Source: Anaerophilus nitritigenes (GTDB lineage Bacteria; Bacillota; Clostridia; Peptostreptococcales; Thermotaleaceae). From it: a DNA stretch of 64,000 nucleotides. The stretch's first letter is position 1. Each line of letters begins with the position of its first letter. The position numbers and the translations under genes were made by a program. Under the pieces are notes generated by a model. The model made no database searches and was not told the DNA's origin. It was given only the letters and a program-made list of their open reading frames with translations. The DNA is taken from assembly GCF_004138215.1 (NCBI RefSeq), contig NZ_RYYS01000009.1, forward strand, positions 62,001 to 126,000, given 5' to 3'. Shown here one piece after another: positions 3,004 through 63,096 of this stretch.

Positions 3004-4410
3004 ATGAAATTTTGGCAGAGGATTTTTATTTACAATTTTCTTTTATTTGTAATAATTTTAAATATAGGAGGAGTTATTTTAATAGAAAATAGCCATCAAG
3101 CAGACTTAAAAAGGGAAGTTCAAAGGACTCTTAGTGAACATTTAAGCATTTATTCCGGTATGAATATGATTATAGAAAATAGGATTTATGAAGATGAAAG
3201 ATTTGGACAAAGTTTTTTATATGATCATATCAGAAATTTTTTAGAAAAATTTCATGATGAAAAAATATATGTAGAGCTTTTAGATAAAAACAATGATATA
3301 TTTTTTACTAGTGTAGACTTTAGAATAAACAGAGAAAGAAAGGAATTAAAAAATCCTCTTGAGAATAGAAGAAAATATATTATAAGGGATCTACAGGATC
3401 AAACTTATTTATTTGTTACAAATATGGTAGAGATCAAGAAAGAGCCTCTCAAATTTACATATATTAGAAATATTACAGAGATATATGCAGAAAGAAATAA
3501 GCAATACAAATTTTTATTTCAATTGGAACTTGTAATGTTTATTTTTATGAGTGTAAGCATGTATTTTATGAGTAGATATATTACAAAACCTATTTATAAA
3601 CTTATAGATGCTATAGAGGATATCACAAGAGGAAATTATTCAAATAGGGTGGAGATTTATGGAGAAGATGAAATAGGGACACTTGCAAAGAAGTTTAATG
3701 AAATGACAGATAACCTAGATGAGAAAATAAATGAATTGGAAAAAAATACAAAAGAAAAACAAAGATTTATAGACAACCTAACTCATGAATTAAAAACACC
3801 TCTTACTTCTATCATAGGTTATGCAGATTTTCTAAGATCTACAAAATATAATGAAGAAATTTATATAAAGGGACTTAATTATATCTATCAAGAGGGAAAA
3901 AGACTAGAGATGCTTTCTTCAAAAATGATGAATTTGATTTTATTGAAGAATGAAAATTTCATCATGAAAAAAGAAAATTTAAAAGAAATTATATTAGAGG
4001 TGGAAAAAATTTTAAAGTATCGTCTCAAAGAAAAAGATATAGGGATGATCATTGAGACCAAAGATTTGTACAAAGAAGTTGAAAAAGACCTTATGAAAAA
4101 TCTAATTGGAAACTTAATAGATAATGGAATAAAGGCATCCCAAATAGGAAGTAATATTTATGTAAAGCTTTATGAAAAAAATGAAAAAATAATCATTGAA
4201 GTAAGAGATGAAGGAATTGGAATAAAAGAAGAAGATATAAAAAAAGTATTTGAACCATTTTTTATGGGAGATGGTTCAAGAAGTAGAAAAAATGAAGGAG
4301 CAGGATTAGGACTTTCTATATGTAATGAAATTGCAAAGCTACATAAAGCAAATTTAGAAATTGAGAGTACTTTCGATAAAGGAACTATAATAAAAATTAT
4401 ATTTGATTAA
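3004..4410 (+). CDS. Membrane sensor histidine kinase (HAMP-HisKA-HATPase)
   Basis: Transmembrane kinase of a two-component system. TM1 is near residues 6-28 (IFIYNFLLFVIILNIGG), followed by an extracellular sensor of about 140 aa, TM2 near 171-190, a HAMP domain (ITKPIYKLIDAIEDITRGNY), the H-box NLTHELKTPLTSIIGY with H261 as phosphoacceptor, the N-box LIGNLIDNGIKAS, G1 DEGIGI, F-box VFEPFFMG and G2 EGAGLGLSI. An upstream in-frame TTG at 2986 is possible, but the AAAGG at 2990-2994 fits the ATG at 3004 with about 9 bases spacing. It is followed by a lipoprotein and its probable regulator, so the three likely form one envelope-signalling unit with the kinase gene first, the reverse of the usual order. 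The stimulus is unknown. Confidence 0.93.
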   Translation: MKFWQRIFIYNFLLFVIILNIGGVILIENSHQADLKREVQRTLSEHLSIYSGMNMIIENRIYEDERFGQSFLYDHIRNFLEKFHDEKIYVELLDKNNDIFFTSVDFRINRERKELKNPLENRRKYIIRDLQDQTYLFVTNMVEIKKEPLKFTYIRNITEIYAERNKQYKFLFQLELVMFIFMSVSMYFMSRYITKPIYKLIDAIEDITRGNYSNRVEIYGEDEIGTLAKKFNEMTDNLDEKINELEKNTKEKQRFIDNLTHELKTPLTSIIGYADFLRSTKYNEEIYIKGLNYIYQEGKRLEMLSSKMMNLILLKNENFIMKKENLKEIILEVEKILKYRLKEKDIGMIIETKDLYKEVEKDLMKNLIGNLIDNGIKASQIGSNIYVKLYEKNEKIIIEVRDEGIGIKEEDIKKVFEPFFMGDGSRSRKNEGAGLGLSICNEIAKLHKANLEIESTFDKGTIIKIIFD

Positions 4411-55766: not shown

Positions 55767-56819
55767 TTGAAAAAAATTGCAGTAATCCTTGTACTTTGCA
55801 TGGCTATGGTTTTATTTAGTGGGTGTGGGCAAGGAAAGGTAAACGAGAAAGGCTATTATGATACGCTAAATGTATACAATTGGGGAGATTATATTGATCC
55901 TGTTGTATTAGAAGAGTTTGAAGAAGAATATGGTATAAAAGTAAATTATGATACTTTTGCGAATAATGAAGAAATGCTTGCAAAGATTCAACAGGGAGGT
56001 AATGACTATGATGTTATTTTCCCTTCAGAATATATGATTGAAACGATGATTAAGGAAGACTTACTTCAAGAACTAGATTATAAAAATCTTTCTAATTTCA
56101 AAAATATAGGAGAACAATTTAAAAATCTTCCTTATGATCCTCAAAATAAATACTCTGTCCCATATTTCTGGGGAAGTATGGGAATTATTTATAACACTAA
56201 AAAGGTAGATGAAAAGGTAGATAGTTGGGACATACTTTGGAATGAGAAATACAAAGGAAATATTTTTATGCTAGATAGTGTAAGAGATACAGTAGGGATT
56301 ACATTAAAAAAATTAGGATACTCTTTAAATACAAAAAATATAGATGAGTTAGAAAAAGCAAAAGAAGAACTAATCAAACAAAAACCTCTTGTAAAAGCTT
56401 ATGAAGTAGACAATTATAAGAGTATGATGATTGCAGGAGAAGGAGCTATGGCTCTTACTTGGTCAGGAGATGCTATGCTTTTAATTGATGAGAATAAAGA
56501 TCTTGCTTATACCATTCCAAAAGAAGGAACAAATCTTTGGTTTGATACTATGGCTGTTCCAGTAACTAGTAAGCATAAAAAAGAGGCTGAACTTTTTATT
56601 GATTATATGATGAGGCCAGAGGTAGCTGCAAAATGTGCGGGATATGTAAAATATGCAACTGCTAATGTGAAAGCTCTAGAGTATCTCCCAAAGGAAGAAG
56701 TGGAAAATGAACTTGCTTATCCAAAAGGAAATATATTTGAAAAAGGAGAAGTATTTATAGATTTGGCAGATTTTACTACAGAATATGATCGTATTTGGAC
56801 AGAAATAAAATCTCATTAA
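55767..56819 (+). CDS. potD: Spermidine/putrescine-binding lipoprotein
   Basis: 350 aa. Signal peptide with lipobox LFSGC and mature Cys; then LNVYNWGDYIDPVVLEEFEE, the PotD N-terminal signature, NYDTFANNEEMLAKIQ, VIFPSEYMIETM, WSGDAMLLI and FIDYMMRPEVA. An ATG at 55746 overlapping potC is in frame, but AAAGGGTGG before the TTG at 55767 gives a standard lipoprotein signal and is preferred. Confidence 0.95.
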   Translation: MKKIAVILVLCMAMVLFSGCGQGKVNEKGYYDTLNVYNWGDYIDPVVLEEFEEEYGIKVNYDTFANNEEMLAKIQQGGNDYDVIFPSEYMIETMIKEDLLQELDYKNLSNFKNIGEQFKNLPYDPQNKYSVPYFWGSMGIIYNTKKVDEKVDSWDILWNEKYKGNIFMLDSVRDTVGITLKKLGYSLNTKNIDELEKAKEELIKQKPLVKAYEVDNYKSMMIAGEGAMALTWSGDAMLLIDENKDLAYTIPKEGTNLWFDTMAVPVTSKHKKEAELFIDYMMRPEVAAKCAGYVKYATANVKALEYLPKEEVENELAYPKGNIFEKGEVFIDLADFTTEYDRIWTEIKSH

Positions 56820-56834
56820 AAATTGTCTAGATAT

Positions 56835-56870
56835 AAAAAAGAATGAAGCAAATGTTTCATTCTTTTTTAT
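56835..56870 (+). terminator. Terminator of potABCD
   Basis: A6-GAATGAA paired with TTCATTC-T6 around a short loop (GCAAATGT region). Confidence 0.85.
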
Positions 56871-56965
56871 ATGAATAAAAACTAGCTATTATCAGAATAT
56901 TTGAAATTAATAACGAAATATGATATAATATTTTACAAGTAAAAAATTATAAAAGGAGTGGTTTT

Positions 56966-57523
56966 TTGTATTTAAAGGAAATAAGGAGTTTATCTAAACG
57001 ATCTATGAGAAAAATGAATGGAAAAGTAAGTAATCTCAAAGTATACTTAGTCCAGGATTTTAATGTAGGTCTTTTAAAAAACATGGTTAATTTTGGACTA
57101 AATATATTTGGCGAATTAGGAATGGATGAATGGGGATTAGTTCCTCAGATTAGACATGGAAATGTTTATGTATTAAAAGAAGAAAACAAAAAAGAAATTG
57201 TTGGAATTGCTATTTTTATGCGAGACTGGGAGAAGGTTGATCAATGTTATTTATTTGATTATGCTATTTCACCAGTTTTTCAAGGAAAAGGTCTAGGATA
57301 TTCATTCCTTAAAATACTTTGTAAAGAGTTGAGATGCCAAGGGTTTGTTAAAATTTCTCTTACAGTAGATATAGAGAATACAGCAGCTATTAAGTTATAT
57401 AAAGATAAAATGGGATTTAAAATAGAATCTTTTAGTAAAGATGAATATGGAAAAGGTCATGATAGATATATTATGGAGCTGGATTTGGAGGATATATCTA
57501 TAAATTTAGAAAAAGTCGTATAA
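56966..57523 (+). CDS. GNAT-family N-acetyltransferase
   Basis: 185 aa. Acetyl-CoA loop FDYAISPVFQGKGLGYSFLK (Q-x-x-G-x-G type) and the following DIENTAAIKLYKDKMGFKIE. TTG start 7 bases after AAGGAG. The substrate is unknown; it lies between the polyamine importer and the agr locus, separated from both by terminators, so no link is claimed. Confidence 0.88.
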   Translation: MYLKEIRSLSKRSMRKMNGKVSNLKVYLVQDFNVGLLKNMVNFGLNIFGELGMDEWGLVPQIRHGNVYVLKEENKKEIVGIAIFMRDWEKVDQCYLFDYAISPVFQGKGLGYSFLKILCKELRCQGFVKISLTVDIENTAAIKLYKDKMGFKIESFSKDEYGKGHDRYIMELDLEDISINLEKVV

Positions 57524-57557
57524 AATATTATTAATGGATTATATAAGGAAAAAATTG

Positions 57558-57603
57558 AAATATAAGAGTATATGATATAAATTTATCATATACTCTTATA
57601 TTT
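57558..57603. terminator. 20-bp palindrome between the GNAT gene and agr locus
   Basis: Perfect arms 57558-57577 and 57584-57603 with a 6-base loop TAAATT; A/T-rich ends allow bidirectional termination. Confidence 0.75.
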
Positions 57604-57736
57604 TTAATAGATTTTAAAAAAATTGGAAAAAGTTTATAATTTATTAGAGGAATATCCAAAACTTTGGCGAATGTAAATATGGGTAGAGAAAAAAATGGGA
57701 GTTATGTCCTATTTAGGGGAAAAAGGGGAATTAAAA

Positions 57737-58360
57737 ATGGGAAATTATATAGAGAAAATTTTGTCTTTTTATCAACATAACGTAGAGATTGATAAAGATC
57801 AAGATGCTATTTTAAGATATGGATTGTACATTTTTATAAGTGGAATGATGTCTTATGCTATGACTTTAATAGTAGGATATATTTTGGGAATTTTGGGGAA
57901 TGTATTTATGATGATGGTGATTGTGTCTATACTTAGATCTGCTTCTGGAGGAGCTCATTGTGAGAGTATGTTCAATTGTGCTTTATTTGGAACAGTTGTT
58001 ACAAATGGATTAGGATGGATTGCACAAGAACTTCCTCTAACAGGAAAAGTAGTATTTTCTATATGTTCAATCGTATTTTTATTTGGAATATGGGCTATAG
58101 GGAAATATGCTCCTGCAGATACACCTCAAAAACCTATTACATCAACAGAAAAAAAATACAAGTTAAAAAGAAAATCTTTTATTTATATTGTTTTATGGTA
58201 TATGGGAGTTGGAATGTATTTTGTTATTTTTCAAAGACTACATGTTTTTATGATTGCAACAGCTTTTGGAGTATTTACTCAATGCTTTTCTATTACACAA
58301 CTGGGGTATAAGATTTGGGCTGGAGGAGATTACTTAATAGAGAAGTTAAGATTTCATTAA
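57737..58360 (+). CDS. agrB: AgrB-type accessory gene regulator peptidase
   Basis: 207-aa membrane cysteine peptidase that trims AgrD and forms the thiolactone/lactone ring. RSASGGAHCESMFNC contains the catalytic His74 and Cys81 in the family spacing (H-x6-C). About five to six membrane segments; C-terminal half has APADTPQKPITSTEKK, as in AgrB. The frame is open from 57695, but AAAAGGGG and the ATG at 57737 are better. agrD follows after 105 bases that hold a hairpin. Confidence 0.95.
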   Translation: MGNYIEKILSFYQHNVEIDKDQDAILRYGLYIFISGMMSYAMTLIVGYILGILGNVFMMMVIVSILRSASGGAHCESMFNCALFGTVVTNGLGWIAQELPLTGKVVFSICSIVFLFGIWAIGKYAPADTPQKPITSTEKKYKLKRKSFIYIVLWYMGVGMYFVIFQRLHVFMIATAFGVFTQCFSITQLGYKIWAGGDYLIEKLRFH

Positions 58361-58386
58361 GAAGCAAAGACAATTCTAATTTATGC

Positions 58387-58437
58387 TATCTATGAAGGCT
58401 ACAATTTTTATGTAGAAAAATTGTAAGCCATTAGATA
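58387..58437 (+). ncRNA. Intercistronic hairpin upstream of agrD
   Basis: TATCTA (58387-58392) with TAGATA (58432-58437), GGCT with AGCC, and ACAATTTTT (58401-58409) with AAAAATTGT (58416-58424), loop ATGTAG. No T-run. Confidence 0.55.
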
Positions 58438-58465
58438 AAATACATAATACAAAGGGGGATGCCTC

Positions 58466-58591
58466 ATGAAGGCAAAATTATTAAAAATTTCTATTGCTGT
58501 ATTTACATTTCTAGCATTTACAAGTGCTGTATCAGCTTGTTCTACTGTTAGCTATCAGCCAGAATTGCCAGAGCAATTAAAAGAAATGTAG
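58466..58591 (+). CDS. agrD: AgrD-type autoinducing peptide precursor, 41 aa
   Basis: An ATG 6 bases after AAAGGGGGAT opens a 41-codon frame ending at TAG. An N-terminal basic amphipathic/hydrophobic helix (MKAKLLKISIAVFTFLAF), a core ACSTVSY with a single cysteine (C25), and an acidic, proline-containing tail QPELPEQLKEM, exactly the three-part plan of AgrD. By analogy with Listeria (C plus four residues, before a YEP-type tail), the ring would be C-S-T-V-S. Directly downstream of agrB and upstream of the receptor genes. Confidence 0.93.
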   Translation: MKAKLLKISIAVFTFLAFTSAVSACSTVSYQPELPEQLKEM

Positions 58592-58598
58592 TAGGCTA

Positions 58599-58626
58599 GG
58601 TAGCAAAGCATTTTGGCTTTGCTACC
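58599..58626 (+). terminator. Hairpin after agrD
   Basis: A perfect 11-bp stem GGTAGCAAAGC/GCTTTGCTACC (58599-58609 with 58616-58626), loop ATTTTG, then AAATTTAG. The T-run is weak, so partial termination or 3'-end stabilisation of agrBD mRNA is likely. Confidence 0.6.
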
Positions 58627-58656
58627 AAATTTAGCTTTTAGACAGAAGGTGAAAAT

Positions 58657-59142
58657 ATGATGATTGTAGAAAAATTATTAGCGCATTTTATGGAGATTTT
58701 TCTAATGCTAGGAGCAGGATTAGGAGTATTAGGAATAAGGCCAAACTTTAAAAAAATGATAAGGATAGGGATTGTATTTTCACCAATTGTATATGGAATT
58801 AGAGAAATATATATTTACTATAAAATCCCATTTGGAACGCATATATTTATATTATTTATTTGTTTTATATTGTTAATAAGAATCATAGGAAAACAAAGAA
58901 TATTAGATAGTATGATTGCAGGACTTATTAGTTTTTCATTATTACTTTGGGGAGAAGGATTTTTTTTGTTTCCTATGTTAAAAATCTTTTGTTTAGATCC
59001 TAATACATTAGTGTTTAGACCAGGGGGAACATTGTTGGCAGGCTTTATTTCAGATATACTATTAATCATAGCGTTTGTTGTAGGATATGTTTTTAAAATT
59101 ACTTTGATTGATTTTTCGTATTTTCATAATTATGATAAATAA
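58657..59142 (+). CDS. Integral membrane protein, possible sensor half of a split AgrC
   Basis: 161 aa, four to five membrane segments (about 8-28, 35-52, 60-78, 83-105, 122-145) and no catalytic domain. MMIVEKLLAHFMEIF is followed by long hydrophobic stretches similar in layout to the N-terminal sensor of AgrC receptors. The stop is 11 bases before the chosen kinase start and the two are co-directional. I do not recognise a named family. The context suggests it forms the ligand-binding membrane part of the receptor. Confidence 0.7.
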   Translation: MMIVEKLLAHFMEIFLMLGAGLGVLGIRPNFKKMIRIGIVFSPIVYGIREIYIYYKIPFGTHIFILFICFILLIRIIGKQRILDSMIAGLISFSLLLWGEGFFLFPMLKIFCLDPNTLVFRPGGTLLAGFISDILLIIAFVVGYVFKITLIDFSYFHNYDK

Positions 59143-59153
59143 GGATGGTATCT

Positions 59154-60017
59154 ATGAAGCTTTCGATTCGTGCATATATATTAGTAGGACTCATATTGTT
59201 GCAAAGTTTTATGATTATGTTTTTGACAAATAATACCATTTTAAATTTAATGGGGAATATAATTATTCAATTTCAGTACCCATATTTTATGGGAATCATT
59301 ATTAATATTCTAGGAATTAGTGCAATTATTTGTGTTTTTTATATGGTACATTTTTTAAAAAAAGAAAAAGAATCTATTATGAAGCTAAATCATTCTAAAG
59401 AAGTGATCGATGCATTACAAGGACAAAAACATGATTTTATCAACCACTTAAATTTGATTGCAGGACTTTTGCAATTAAAAAAAAGTGACAAGGCTTTAGA
59501 ATACATTTTTAAAGTTTCGCAAAGAGTAGAAGAAGTTTTTTCTATTTCTAAAATAGAAAATGTTGAGATTGCTGCTACTTTAGGAAGAAAATGTGCTATT
59601 GCACAAAGTAAAGGAATTAAAGTAGAATTAGATATAAGTTCTACATTAGACCATTTATATATAGATTCTATTGATTTGTCTCAAGTATTATTTAATTTGA
59701 TAGACAATGCAATTTATGAATTAGAACGTTGTAAAGAAGATGATAAAGTGCTTACTATAGATATTCAAGAGTGTGAAGATGAATGTGTAATTGCTATAGG
59801 CAATTCTTATCCAATTTTATCAGATGCATTGTATAATAAAATATTTGAAAAAGGGTATTCTACTAAAGAGGGTAGTGACCATGGATATGGTTTAAACATT
59901 GTAAAACAATTTATTCAAAATAATAAAGGGAAAATTCAAGTTGAAAGCTATGAAGGTGTAGGAACAATTTTTACTATTTTTTTGCCTGTCAAAAAGAAAT
60001 TGGCTACATCTAATTAA
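59154..60017 (+). CDS. Short GHKL sensor kinase, AgrC-like
   Basis: About 287 aa. Only two membrane segments (about 6-25 and 45-68), then a SpoOB/GHKL-type core: GQKHDFINHLNLIAGLLQLK with phosphoacceptor H93, VLFNLIDNAIYELERC (N-box), SDHGYGLNIVKQFI (G-box). Typical AgrC proteins have six to seven membrane segments, so this one looks N-terminally short. The ATG at 59154 is 9 bases after AAGG; 59145 is too close. No AgrA-type regulator follows; the next gene is pyrE with its own promoter. Confidence 0.88.
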   Translation: MKLSIRAYILVGLILLQSFMIMFLTNNTILNLMGNIIIQFQYPYFMGIIINILGISAIICVFYMVHFLKKEKESIMKLNHSKEVIDALQGQKHDFINHLNLIAGLLQLKKSDKALEYIFKVSQRVEEVFSISKIENVEIAATLGRKCAIAQSKGIKVELDISSTLDHLYIDSIDLSQVLFNLIDNAIYELERCKEDDKVLTIDIQECEDECVIAIGNSYPILSDALYNKIFEKGYSTKEGSDHGYGLNIVKQFIQNNKGKIQVESYEGVGTIFTIFLPVKKKLATSN

Positions 60018-60032
60018 GATACAAATAATAAA

Positions 60033-60061
60033 TTGACAAGACGAAAATATGATGATAACAT
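60033..60061 (+). promoter_or_regulatory. Promoter of pyrE
   Basis: TTGACA (60033-60038), 17 bases, TAACAT (60056-60061). The transcript would begin near 60068, just before the PyrR-type element. Confidence 0.75.
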
Positions 60062-60072
60062 AATTGAGAAAT

Positions 60073-60108
60073 ACCTTTAAAAGGAGTCCAGTGAGGCTAA
60101 CAAGGAGG
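60073..60108 (+). promoter_or_regulatory. PyrR-binding RNA element overlapping the pyrE ribosome site
   Basis: The loop GAGTCCAGTGAGGCT (60084-60098) closely matches the PyrR-binding consensus (TCCAGAGAGGCT core). It is closed by CCTT (60074-60077) with AAGG (60102-60105). That AAGG is the first part of the AAGGAGG ribosome site (60102-60108), so UMP-bound PyrR could block translation rather than trigger termination. Confidence 0.75.
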
Positions 60109-60115
60109 ATAAAAT

Positions 60116-60751
60116 ATGAATATAAGTCAAGAAATTGCTAAAAATCTTTTGGAAATTAAAGCTGTTGCTATAAGAAGTACAGATAATCTTTTTACATGGG
60201 CATCAGGAATCAAATCACCTATTTATTGTGACAATCGTCTGACTATGAGTTATCCCCATGTAAGAAATATGATTGCAAATGGATTTGAAAAATTGATTAA
60301 GGAAAAATATGAAGACGTTGAGATAATTGTAGGAACAGCTACTGCAGGAATTCCTCATGCGGCATGGGTATCTGAAAAGATGAATCTTCCTATGGCATAT
60401 GTAAGAAGTAGTGCAAAGGGTCATGGAAAGGGAAATCAGATTGAAGGCATTGTAAAAAAAGGTCAAAAGGTTGTAGTCATAGAAGATTTACTTTCTACTG
60501 GAGGAAGCTCTATAAAAGCTGTGAAAGCTTTAACAGAAATAGGAGCAGAGGTACTAGGGGTTGTAGCTATATTTACTTATAATTTTGATCAAGTAGATGA
60601 ATCTTTTTCAAAGATGAAAGTTTCTTATGATACACTAACTGGATATAATATTCTTCTTCCTATTGCAATAGATATGGGTTATATCAAAGAAGAAGAAAAA
60701 GAAATGTTAACAAAATGGAGTAAAAATCCTTATATATTTACAAAAGAATAA
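60116..60751 (+). CDS. pyrE: Orotate phosphoribosyltransferase
   Basis: Converts orotate and PRPP to OMP in pyrimidine synthesis. 211 aa: FTWASGIKSPIYCDNR, VGTATAGIPHAAWVSEK, YVRSSAKGHGKGN and the PRPP loop VVVIEDLLSTGGSS. AAGGAGG is 7 bases before the ATG and lies within a PyrR-type structure. It stands alone; the other pyr genes are elsewhere. Confidence 0.97.
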   Translation: MNISQEIAKNLLEIKAVAIRSTDNLFTWASGIKSPIYCDNRLTMSYPHVRNMIANGFEKLIKEKYEDVEIIVGTATAGIPHAAWVSEKMNLPMAYVRSSAKGHGKGNQIEGIVKKGQKVVVIEDLLSTGGSSIKAVKALTEIGAEVLGVVAIFTYNFDQVDESFSKMKVSYDTLTGYNILLPIAIDMGYIKEEEKEMLTKWSKNPYIFTKE

Positions 60752-60797
60752 AAGGATATGCCTTAGGCATATCCTTTTATTCTTTTGTAAATATATA
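60731..60797. terminator. 32-bp perfect hairpin overlapping the pyrE 3' end
   Basis: Arms 60731-60762 and 60766-60797 are fully complementary with a TTA loop. The left arm contains the last seven pyrE codons. The part with GGATATGCC/GGCATATCC followed by TTTTATTCTTTT acts as the terminator. Confidence 0.85.
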
Positions 60798-60853
60798 AAC
60801 TTAAATTATAAAATTAAGAACATGAAAGAACGACAGAGGATCTATGGATAAAT

Positions 60854-60935
60854 AGGTCAAAACCTGTAGGAATTCATTTAAAAGAAACATTGTCATAAGT
60901 GGGGACAATGGTGCATAATATACAATATGTGGTGT
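60854..60935 (+). promoter_or_regulatory. Structured leader and NrdR-like box upstream of nrdD
   Basis: AGGT/ACCT (60854-60865) and CATTGTC/GACAATG (60888-60894 with 60904-60910) form small stems. ATACAATATGTGGTGT (60920-60935) resembles the NrdR box (ACACnATATnTnGTGT). Only one box is evident; functional sites usually come in pairs, so this is tentative. Confidence 0.35.
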
Positions 60936-60969
60936 AAGCTAAAGAAAGAAACACAATAGGAGGGGTAGT

Positions 60970-63096
60970 ATGTCAGTTACAAAGGTTCAAAAGAGAAATG
61001 GTGAAATTGTCGACTTTGATAGTAGTAAAATCAAGCTTGCTATATTTGCTGCTGCTAAATCTGTAGGCGGAAAAGATGAAATGGTTGCAGCAAGATTGGC
61101 AAAAATAGTAGTTGATATTATTCACGAGACTTACGGAGCAAGTATTCCATCTGTAGAAGATGTTCAAGATATAGTAGAAAAAGTATTGATTGAGGAAGGT
61201 CATGCAAAAACATCAAAGGCTTATATATTATATAGAAAAAAACATGAAGAAATTCGAGAAGTGAAAAATTTATTCATGGATGCAGAAAGAATGATTGAAG
61301 AGTATGTTAATTTGGAAGATTGGCGTGTCAATGAAAATGCCAATATGGGATTTTCATTACAAGGACTCAATAATCACATTGTAGAAAGTATTACGAAAAA
61401 GTATTGGTTAAATAAAATATATAGAAAAGAATTAAGAGAAGTACATATTAGAGGAGATTTACATATACATGATTTAGGACTTTTGGCTCCTTATTGTTGT
61501 GGATGGGATCTTGAATCTTTTTTAAGATATGGTTTTAGAGGAGCAAAAGGAAAAATTGAATCAAAGCCTCCAAGGCATTTAGAATCTGCCCTAGGACAGC
61601 TTGTTAATCTACTTTATACTCTTCAAGGTGAATCAGCAGGAGCTCAAGCTGTATCTAGCATTGATACTTATTTAGCACCTTTTATTTATTATGACAATCT
61701 AAGTTACGAACAAGTAAAAAAAGCTTTGCAGAGATTTGTATTTAATTTAAATGTACCGACTAGAGTGGGTTTTCAAACTCCTTTTACTAATGTTACATTA
61801 GATATTACACCTCATCCACTTCTTAAAAATCAACCAGTAATCATCGCTGGAGAGATTATGGAAAAAACATATAAAGAGTTTCAAAAGGAAATGGATCTGT
61901 TTAATAAAGCATTTTGTGAAGTAATGATGGAAGGAGATGGAGCAGGAAGAGCATTTAGCTTCCCCATTCCTACTGTAAATATTACACCAGATTTTCCGTG
62001 GAATTCAGAATCTGTCAATGCCATTATGGAGATGACAAGAAAGTTCGGAACACCTTATTTTGCCAATTTCTTAAATTCTGATTTATCGCCAGAAGATGTA
62101 AGGAGTATGTGCTGTAGACTAAGACTCGATAATAGAGAACTAAGAAGAAGAGGTGGGGGATTATTCGGAGCAAATCCTTTAACAGGATCTATTAATGTAG
62201 TAACTTTGAATATGGCAAGGATTGGGTATCTCTCAAAAACTGTAGAAGAATTTAAAAGTAGAGTGAAAAACTTAATGGAGATTGCAAAAGAAATTTGTGA
62301 GACAAAAAGAGAAGTGCTAGAACAATATATGGATGCAGGATTATATCCTTATTCAAGATTTTATCTTCAAGGGGTTAAGGATGGAACGGGCGAGTACTTT
62401 AAGAATCACTTCTCAACAATAGGATTAAATGGAATGAATGAAGCGTGCATCAATTTATTAGGAGTAGATATTACTACAGAAGAAGGAAATGAGTTTGCTG
62501 TTGAAATTATGGAATTTATGAATAGAGTGATTCAAATATTCCAAGAAGAAACTGGAAGCTTGTGGAATTTAGAGGCATCTCCTGCTGAGGGAGCTAGTTA
62601 TAGATTTGCAAGGATTGATAAAAAAATGTATCCAAATATCTTTACTCAAGGAGAAAACGAACCGTATTATACAAATTCTACTCAGCTTCCTGTAAATTAC
62701 ACAAATGATGTATTTGAGGCTATTGAACTGCAAGAAAAACTACAATCTCTGTATACAGGAGGAACAGTATTTCATGGATTTATTGGAGAAGAAATTGACA
62801 GTATAGAGACTTGTAAACTTCTTTTAAAGAAAGTAATGGAAAATAGCAGTATTCCTTATGTAACCATTACACCAACATTTTCTATTTGTGCAGATCATGG
62901 ATATATTTCAGGAGAACATTTTAATTGTCCTCATTGTGGAAAAGAATCCGAAGTATGGACACGGGTAGTGGGATTTCATAGACCAGTTCAATCATGGAAT
63001 AAAGGAAAACAAGAAGAATTTAAGGATAGAACAGAATTTTCTCATACACAGAGCCTAAAACATCAACAGCAGAGAGTGTCTATAAAAATTGGATAA
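60970..63096 (+). CDS. nrdD: Anaerobic (class III) ribonucleoside-triphosphate reductase
   Basis: Reduces NTPs to dNTPs by a glycyl radical under anaerobic conditions. 708 aa: N-terminal ATP-cone (TKVQKRNGEIVDFDSSKIKL), catalytic barrel (HIHDLGLLAPYCCGW, LQGESAGAQAVSSIDTYLAP, NLNVPTRVGFQTPFTNVTLD), C-terminal zinc cysteines (ICADHGY, CPHCGKES) and the radical glycine in RVVGFHRP. AGGAGGGG precedes the ATG. Translationally coupled to nrdG. Confidence 0.97.
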   Translation: MSVTKVQKRNGEIVDFDSSKIKLAIFAAAKSVGGKDEMVAARLAKIVVDIIHETYGASIPSVEDVQDIVEKVLIEEGHAKTSKAYILYRKKHEEIREVKNLFMDAERMIEEYVNLEDWRVNENANMGFSLQGLNNHIVESITKKYWLNKIYRKELREVHIRGDLHIHDLGLLAPYCCGWDLESFLRYGFRGAKGKIESKPPRHLESALGQLVNLLYTLQGESAGAQAVSSIDTYLAPFIYYDNLSYEQVKKALQRFVFNLNVPTRVGFQTPFTNVTLDITPHPLLKNQPVIIAGEIMEKTYKEFQKEMDLFNKAFCEVMMEGDGAGRAFSFPIPTVNITPDFPWNSESVNAIMEMTRKFGTPYFANFLNSDLSPEDVRSMCCRLRLDNRELRRRGGGLFGANPLTGSINVVTLNMARIGYLSKTVEEFKSRVKNLMEIAKEICETKREVLEQYMDAGLYPYSRFYLQGVKDGTGEYFKNHFSTIGLNGMNEACINLLGVDITTEEGNEFAVEIMEFMNRVIQIFQEETGSLWNLEASPAEGASYRFARIDKKMYPNIFTQGENEPYYTNSTQLPVNYTNDVFEAIELQEKLQSLYTGGTVFHGFIGEEIDSIETCKLLLKKVMENSSIPYVTITPTFSICADHGYISGEHFNCPHCGKESEVWTRVVGFHRPVQSWNKGKQEEFKDRTEFSHTQSLKHQQQRVSIKIG

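Follow-up and report, generated by a model that had tools for sequence, protein, structure and literature searches.

A conserved agrD gene in an agr-type cassette with a putative two-piece receptor and no detected adjacent regulator in Anaerophilus nitritigenes

Introduction

The closest characterized counterpart of the signal peptide described here is the AgrD protein Clo1313_2818 of C. thermocellum, in which a cut is predicted between A24 and S25 and S25 closes onto F29, and its cyclic pentapeptide has been confirmed in supernatants by LC-MS/MS (PMC5322536). The AgrD encoded in the window, by which we mean the whole 64,000-nucleotide stretch of Anaerophilus nitritigenes DNA that was analyzed, shares with Clo1313_2818 the expected cut positions between residues 24 and 25 and between residues 29 and 30, as well as A24, Tyr30 and Pro35; however, the C. 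thermocellum ring closes through Ser to form a lactone, whereas the window ring would close through Cys as a predicted thiolactone (PMC5322536). The genetic setting also differs, in that the authors of the C. thermocellum report had identified no agrB, agrC or agrA candidates for their peptide, whereas the window has an adjacent agrB and a candidate receptor (PMC5322536). A ring in which Ser takes the place of the Cys is known as well from the autoinducing peptide of Staphylococcus intermedius, a lactone that provides a precedent for some of the orthologues reported below. The window peptide, unlike that of S. intermedius, keeps the Cys, and closure through Thr, seen in five of our orthologues, is not mentioned in that source, where the word threonine does not occur (PMC10482373). 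An agr operon without agrA, as in the window, has been described for Agr system 1 of Clostridium autoethanogenum, but that system, with the order agrD-agrC-agrB and a single agrC, resembles another locus of our genome, on contig C83, rather than the window locus (PMC8748961). Our analysis suggests that what is new is the cassette as a variant agr arrangement, with a putative two-piece receptor and no adjacent AgrA; the AgrD family to which the peptide belongs and an agr operon lacking agrA were known already.

Results

The agrD frame occupies positions 58466..58591 of the + strand, has no internal stop and encodes a predicted 41-aa cyclic autoinducing peptide precursor, MKAKLLKISIAVFTFLAFTSAVSACSTVSYQPELPEQLKEM. 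A G-rich ribosome-binding-like site, AAAGGGGGA, can be read from the letters 5' of the frame at 58451..58459 (+), and agrD lies after a true agrB and before the genes for a membrane protein, here called X, and a histidine kinase. The product matches the NCBIfam model TIGR04223 (quorum_AgrD) at 38.1 bits and E 1.1e-9, about twice the cut-off of 19, over model positions 2-37 of 38; Pfam gave no match for the 41-aa product. When the whole genome (3.06 Mb in 112 contigs, 99.5% complete; G000) was scanned with TIGR04223, two places scored above the cut-off, the window agrD and one on contig C83. Compared with a genome of the same genus (G001), 8 of the 41 codons differ silently and 2 of the 41 by an amino-acid change, and the ring is identical. 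The TIGR04223 score, the genome-wide scan and the excess of silent substitutions against the congener codons rule out a chance frame; the family match, the two-place scan, the AgrB neighbor and the codon pattern in G001 indicate that agrD is a conserved gene. The original prediction of a 41-codon agrD between agrB and the receptor genes is thus borne out by the TIGR04223 match at 38.1 bits, the PF04647 neighbor and conservation. It had also named loss of the frame in relatives that keep agrB as a sign against the gene; such loss was looked for, and agrD is retained in each of the 11 relatives whose AgrB matches best. By its sequence, this AgrD is a new member of the known family TIGR04223, whose leader, ring and Pro-x-x-Pro tail it shares and from which it departs in a leader that is hydrophobic rather than amphipathic and in a ring sequence that is new as far as we have seen. 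We consider it highly likely that 58466-58591 holds a real agrD, together with its ring, in an agr-type peptide-signaling cassette of the order agrB-agrD-X-kinase.

The agrB gene is located at 57737..58360 (+) and from its preferred start encodes a 207-aa protein with a PF04647 match of E 3e-37, a predicted membrane peptidase that would process and export AgrD. An in-frame ATG at 57695 offers an alternative start that would give 221 aa; the AgrB of the congener starts at the preferred site. Residues H74 and C81 are invariant in all 12 aligned AgrBs, with a spacing that we take to be that of the His77/Cys84 catalytic pair in S. aureus, so that the PF04647 domain and the His/Cys pair of an AgrB are both present. 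Membership of this family suggests that AgrB would produce the cyclic peptide. A search with AgrB across 59 genomes, comprising the source genome and its relatives, gave matches in 28, and the best 11 from other genomes, each at E 6e-39 or better, stand without exception in the agrB-agrD-X-kinase order; an AgrB scan of a first set of named genomes gave no match. The carriers include Candidatus Petromonas tenebris, two Marinisporobacter assemblies, Anaerosolibacter carboniphilus, another Anaerosolibacter and Geosporobacter ferrireducens.

The AgrD leader comprises residues 1-24 (58466..58537, +), starts with positive charge, has a hydrophobic segment at residues 5-23 by hydropathy and ends in Val-Ser-Ala before Cys25. 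The N-terminal helix of S. aureus AgrD is amphipathic, and the same had been claimed for this leader. Our calculation does not agree, as the largest helical moment is 0.17 and is matched or exceeded in 1632 of 2000 shuffles; the leader is hydrophobic instead. We do not treat an amphipathic helix as defining an AgrD, since TIGR04223 is passed without one and the C. thermocellum precursor has a predicted signal-peptide cut. Ala is found directly before the ring in 19 of 19 orthologues, and the V-S-A end suits a putative cut by signal peptidase. The predicted ring, C-S-T-V-S at residues 25-29 (58538..58552, +), is a Cys25-Ser29 thiolactone in a register set by the 19 orthologues and the C. thermocellum lactone at 25-29. 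It is followed by the recognition tail YQPELPEQLKEM (58553..58588, +), which AgrB is proposed to remove. The nucleophile Cys25, the five-residue ring to S29 and the Pro-x-x-Pro tail of YQPELP stand in the order of the family. The ring that had been predicted is supported by the family model, its place after agrB, conservation and a register common to the MS-confirmed C. thermocellum peptide.

The 19 AgrDs of the window type (the window, L037-L047, L090-L093 and L163-L165, the last three from the class search) show invariant flanks beside a variable ring. Counting the ring-closing residue as 0, the five columns of the ring have entropies of 1.3-2.7 bits, and Ala -1, Gln 6, Pro 7 and Pro 10 do not vary at all (0 bits), the three tail residues being present in 19/19 and position 5 being Y or F; leader columns also vary, by up to 2.5 and 2.0 bits, and the ring is hence not the only variable region. 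There are 17 distinct rings among them, and 18 of the 19 sequences finish the ring on G, S, N or A. The ring is closed by Cys in 12, by Thr in five (L042, L045, L090, L163, L164) and by Ser in two (L043, L092). As a side observation, the ring of L163 is T-N-G-I-G, in which Thr is the sole residue with a hydroxyl or thiol, predicting a Thr lactone; no account of a Thr-closed AgrD ring was found in a search of the open-access literature that was largely at abstract level and is weak evidence on this point. The original prediction took the lack of bulky hydrophobic residues in the ring to be peculiar. C-S-T-V-S is indeed small and polar, but this is a property of the group, because 18 of 19 orthologues share such a small last residue and the congener has the same ring. 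The CSTVS ring may plausibly have a signal specificity of its own, as may any new ring. Because the expected cut positions are those of the C. thermocellum pentapeptide, we predict by analogy that the product is a tailless five-residue CSTVS thiolactone.

The same residues could be read as a tiny lipoprotein, in which Val-Ser-Ala-Cys is a lipobox and Cys25 is lipidated instead of cyclized. A hydrophobic leader that begins with positive charge favors this, and its V-S-A-C end presumably fits the lipobox consensus; however, the Cys that a lipobox would keep invariant is replaced by Thr or Ser in 7 of the 19 orthologues although the flanks are conserved, and the TIGR04223 match and the AgrB neighbor also speak against this reading, which we have rejected as extremely improbable. 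The similar C. thermocellum peptide, moreover, is a cyclic lactone (PMC5322536).

Two further agr loci were observed in the source genome. On contig C83 (L053, about 4168-4281, and L195) there is a second AgrD with a Thr ring-closing residue and, in the register used here, a ring T-L-W-Y-S; the order is AgrD, then a fused 460-aa AgrC, then AgrB, and no regulator was detected in the 10-kb stretch. At the end of contig C7 (L054, 1582-4214) lies a third agr cassette with a LytTR regulator, an X-like protein, a kinase and AgrB; as the contig stops 6 bases beyond this last gene, an AgrD may lie off it.

Downstream of the window agrD, protein X (58657..59142, +; 161 aa) has no Pfam or NCBIfam match and is proposed to be a detached AgrC sensor half. 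Its AlphaFold2 model has five membrane-length helices at pLDDT 83.6; simple hydropathy gives four. Structure look-ups of X returned middling, unrelated membrane proteins and no telling PDB match (Foldseek best E 1.1, VIA-align best Z 5.3), and the missing AgrC match there says little. A relation of X to AgrB was ruled out, as the AgrB profile matches X at a probability of 0.1%. The short sensor kinase that follows (59145..60017, +; 290 aa) matches SPOB_a (PF14689, E 3.2e-17) and HATPase_c (PF02518, E 6.7e-16) and has two N-terminal hydrophobic segments, 10-28 and 50-68, by hydropathy. In 11 relatives, identity to the window is 39-81% for X versus 58-91% for the kinase, so that X is the faster evolving. 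Between agrD and X, an RNA hairpin of 11 bp without a U-tract is predicted at 58599..58626 (+; z -4.7). It is strong in 8 of 10 stretches folded (the window, L037-L041, L045 and L046; z -4.7 to -7.9), is not seen in L042 and L043, and folds weakly in L090, L092 and L093; its sequence differs among relatives, and loop lengths differ such that the DNA alignment is unusable for pair counting. Perhaps the hairpin determines how much AgrD is made relative to the receptor. Over 56800-61000, Rfam gave nothing above the gathering score. A PyrR-binding-site-like match at 60070-60193 (39.4 bits against a gathering score of 54, E 0.0045) overlaps the start of pyrE, and pyrE might on the basis of this match be regulated apart from the agr cassette. 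Promoter matches numbered 20 against a shuffled expectation of 19.4.

A one-chain AgrC combines a polytopic sensor and a GHKL kinase, and the window has two genes, of 161 and 290 aa, in its place; we suggest that X and the kinase work like a one-chain AgrC without being one. The fused 460-aa AgrC on contig C83 is the nearest comparison in the same genome. A profile of the short kinase matches AgrC at a probability of 99.9%, covering the kinase part only, and the C83 sensor part resembles X at 64%, but sensor and kinase are two genes in the window and a single chain in C83. The value of 64% comes from a profile of three fused AgrC sensors (the source genome's own, that of G001 and that of G564), which aligns with X over 143 columns at E 6.4e-5 via a Pro-x-Gly-x-His stretch. 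In the other direction, the X profile directly matches the sensor region of a 458-aa fused AgrC in G564 (E 5.7e-7, positions 5-159 of 161), which strengthens the split-AgrC reading. A natural fusion is present in a distant relative (L100 in G134), where a 444-aa protein has X at its N-terminus (E 1.3e-7) and kinase domains behind it, with AgrB, an AgrD-like frame and a LytTR regulator as neighbors; X scores against this N-terminus at a shuffle Z of 8.9, and 0 of 500 shuffles reach the score. The helices add up in a comparable manner: the five of X and the two of the kinase make seven, the number counted in the fusion, and the C83 AgrC has six (hydropathy). Pairwise tests are weak, as 24 of 500 shuffles reach the score of X against the AgrC of its own genome, and 13 and 51 of 500 reach those of the two kinase helices against the last helices of AgrC and against the fusion, respectively; homology of X and AgrC is therefore likely and not proven. 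No description of a split AgrC was found in the open-access literature, in a largely abstract-level search that is weak evidence. Taken from these comparisons, it is likely that X and the short kinase are an AgrC receptor in two pieces. The original prediction, which spoke of receptor genes, had raised neither this point nor the lack of an AgrA-type regulator next to them.

The distribution of X bears on the same question. Searches with X matched 42 of 393 genomes of the order, at 66 places, and 18 of 391 genomes of the class. By phmmer annotation and an AgrD motif test, the 66 places comprise 20 with AgrB, AgrD, X and kinase, five with the same and a regulator, one fusion with a regulator, eight with X, AgrB, AgrD and a GGDEF/HD-like protein, six with X and kinase only (L087, L088, L089, L096, L106, L141), one with X, kinase and regulator, 23 with X alone and two without an X-like frame by our own test. 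X and a kinase thus share a stretch at 26 of 66 places, with a regulator at six more and fused at one, and AgrB is near X at 34 of 66, all 34 of which have an AgrD-like frame by the motif test. Four other groups of X, compared as profiles, match the X group of the window at 97.8-99.4% probability. This recurrence beside agrBD with differing outputs favors a sensing role for X; the 23 of 66 places at which no agr gene or kinase was detected near it speak against a role limited to agr, and X is hence not always tied to peptide sensing. An alternative is that the 290-aa kinase senses the peptide alone and that X is an accessory membrane protein, for example in AgrB function, immunity or peptide uptake. 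The 23 solitary places point that way, as do the weak pairwise similarity of X to AgrC and the eight places where X accompanies AgrB, AgrD and a GGDEF/HD-like protein with no kinase, where X may serve AgrB. However, the six X-kinase pairs without agrBD in the stretch oppose a role tied to AgrB only, and an accessory X accords poorly with the natural X-kinase fusion, with the X profile match to a fused AgrC sensor and with a kinase that has two hydrophobic segments versus six in the fused AgrC of the genome. We regard an accessory X as unlikely and retain the two-piece receptor as our preferred reading.

Several arrangements of X were observed besides these. X, AgrB and AgrD are followed by a GGDEF/HD-like protein in L048-L052, L101, L123, L125, L129 and L135, the GGDEF/HD domains being established in L048 and the other loci being assigned by similarity to the L048 protein; a link from cyclic peptide to cyclic di-GMP is possible at such loci. 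Tandem X-like genes stand before kinase, AgrB, AgrD and regulator in L132 (2394-3612) and L140 (2506-3671). X-like genes stand alone in L103 (2885-3328) and 22 further loci, where neither an agr gene nor a kinase was detected in the vicinity. In L176 (2968-4155), an AgrD-like frame (C-L-F-F-F-Y-Q-P) lies next to a 282-aa protein that matches X weakly (E 9.8e-4); AgrB was not detected in that stretch.

No LytTR regulator, and hence no AgrA partner, was detected in the window locus, and three LytTR-regulator queries (E 1e-4 or better) detected no receiver protein in the 20 AgrB-AgrD-X-kinase stretches. LytTR surroundings were examined in six of the 19 carriers (the source genome, G008, G015, G031, G212 and G012), and LytTR regulators were counted in the other 13. 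The source genome has two such regulators, of which one neighbors LytS and the other belongs to the C7 cassette; G008, G015, G031 and G212 have 2, 2, 1 and 1, all six beside LytS; G012 has one beside LytS and another, at a contig end (L183), that is not. In at least four carriers the phosphate should accordingly go to a regulator other than AgrA, as the LytTR regulators there all belong to LytS-LytR pairs, and an AgrA-type output is unsupported, with the source genome (C7) and G012 (L183) as the exceptions to the four of six carriers that have only LytS-paired LytTR regulators. It may be argued that the window kinase cross-talks to the LytTR regulator of the C7 cassette, which would amount to a normal AgrC-AgrA pathway. 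The C7 regulator does stand beside its own X, kinase and AgrB, and the same-family carrier G012 likewise has a LytTR regulator not beside LytS. Two of the three other same-family carriers examined (G008 and G015), however, have no LytTR regulator outside LytS-LytR, the same holds for G031 and G212, and the C7 kinase has no SPOB_a match; we judge such cross-talk to be quite improbable. Probably the regulator is encoded elsewhere and is of a non-AgrA (non-LytTR) type.

Orphan kinases acting directly on Spo0A in C. acetobutylicum were reportedly described by Steiner in 2011. The action of orphan kinases on Spo0A has also been discussed for clostridia (PMC11210211). Because of such orphan-kinase action, Spo0A is our leading guess for the phosphate acceptor, one that we hold tentatively and with considerable doubt. 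Of the 19 carriers, 18 have Spo0A and one, G012, which is 91% complete, has none, but this presence hardly discriminates. In a census of orphan regulators in the source genome, G008 and G031, with G212 left out, receiver places without a kinase match within 3.2 kb number 6 of 35, 7 of 36 and 7 of 21, respectively. Two of the six in the source genome have a neighboring kinase-like frame, one is chemotaxis-like by eye, one is Spo0A and the other two are at C40:120547 and C52:119220; given these further orphan regulators, including those of G031, Spo0A remains a guess.

Discussion

This study has computed the genes of the cassette, their families and their conservation, the invariant flanks beside the variable ring and a setting in which no adjacent regulator was detected. 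From these we infer the cleavage sites, the ring chemistry, the part of X as peptide receptor and the identity of the regulator. The AgrD precursor would enter the membrane by its signal-peptide-like leader, and AgrB would cut after residue 29, closing Cys25 onto Ser29. Signal peptidase would then cut after Ala24 to leave the tailless thiolactone cyclo(Cys-Ser-Thr-Val-Ser), which a two-piece receptor would sense, X corresponding to the first part of the AgrC sensor domain and the 290-aa protein to the last two AgrC helices and the kinase. Phosphate would pass from this kinase to a response regulator encoded elsewhere, probably non-LytTR, with Spo0A as the leading guess. The account as a whole, that is, an agrB-agrD-X-kinase cassette with a tailless CSTVS ring, a two-piece receptor and a distant regulator, appears to us reasonably probable.

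A broader reading is that X is a portable receptor subunit, an AgrC sensor separated from its kinase that teams up with agrBD and can be coupled to various outputs, in the window as a two-piece receptor without AgrA. The outputs would be a kinase without AgrA, a kinase with a LytTR regulator, a fused kinase or a GGDEF/HD enzyme, and in the lineage of the window X would receive five-residue rings that lack a tail and have Cys, Ser or Thr as the closing residue. We put forward this reading as a speculation with slightly less than an even chance of being right.

The AgrD itself is one more predicted signal in a known family; of more consequence is the cassette, which suggests that an AgrC can exist in two parts, that its sensor half is reused beside kinases and GGDEF/HD-type enzymes, and that agr signaling is possible without AgrA. 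For some agrBD systems of clostridia no receptor is known. In C. difficile, agrBD stands without an adjacent receptor, and an as yet unidentified transmembrane sensor for AgrD1 must exist according to that study (PMC10602386). A recognizable 160-aa sensor subunit would be a concrete search target for the receptors of such clostridial agrBD pairs, and a portable X, if true, would provide a way to find the missing receptors of other clostridial agrBD pairs.
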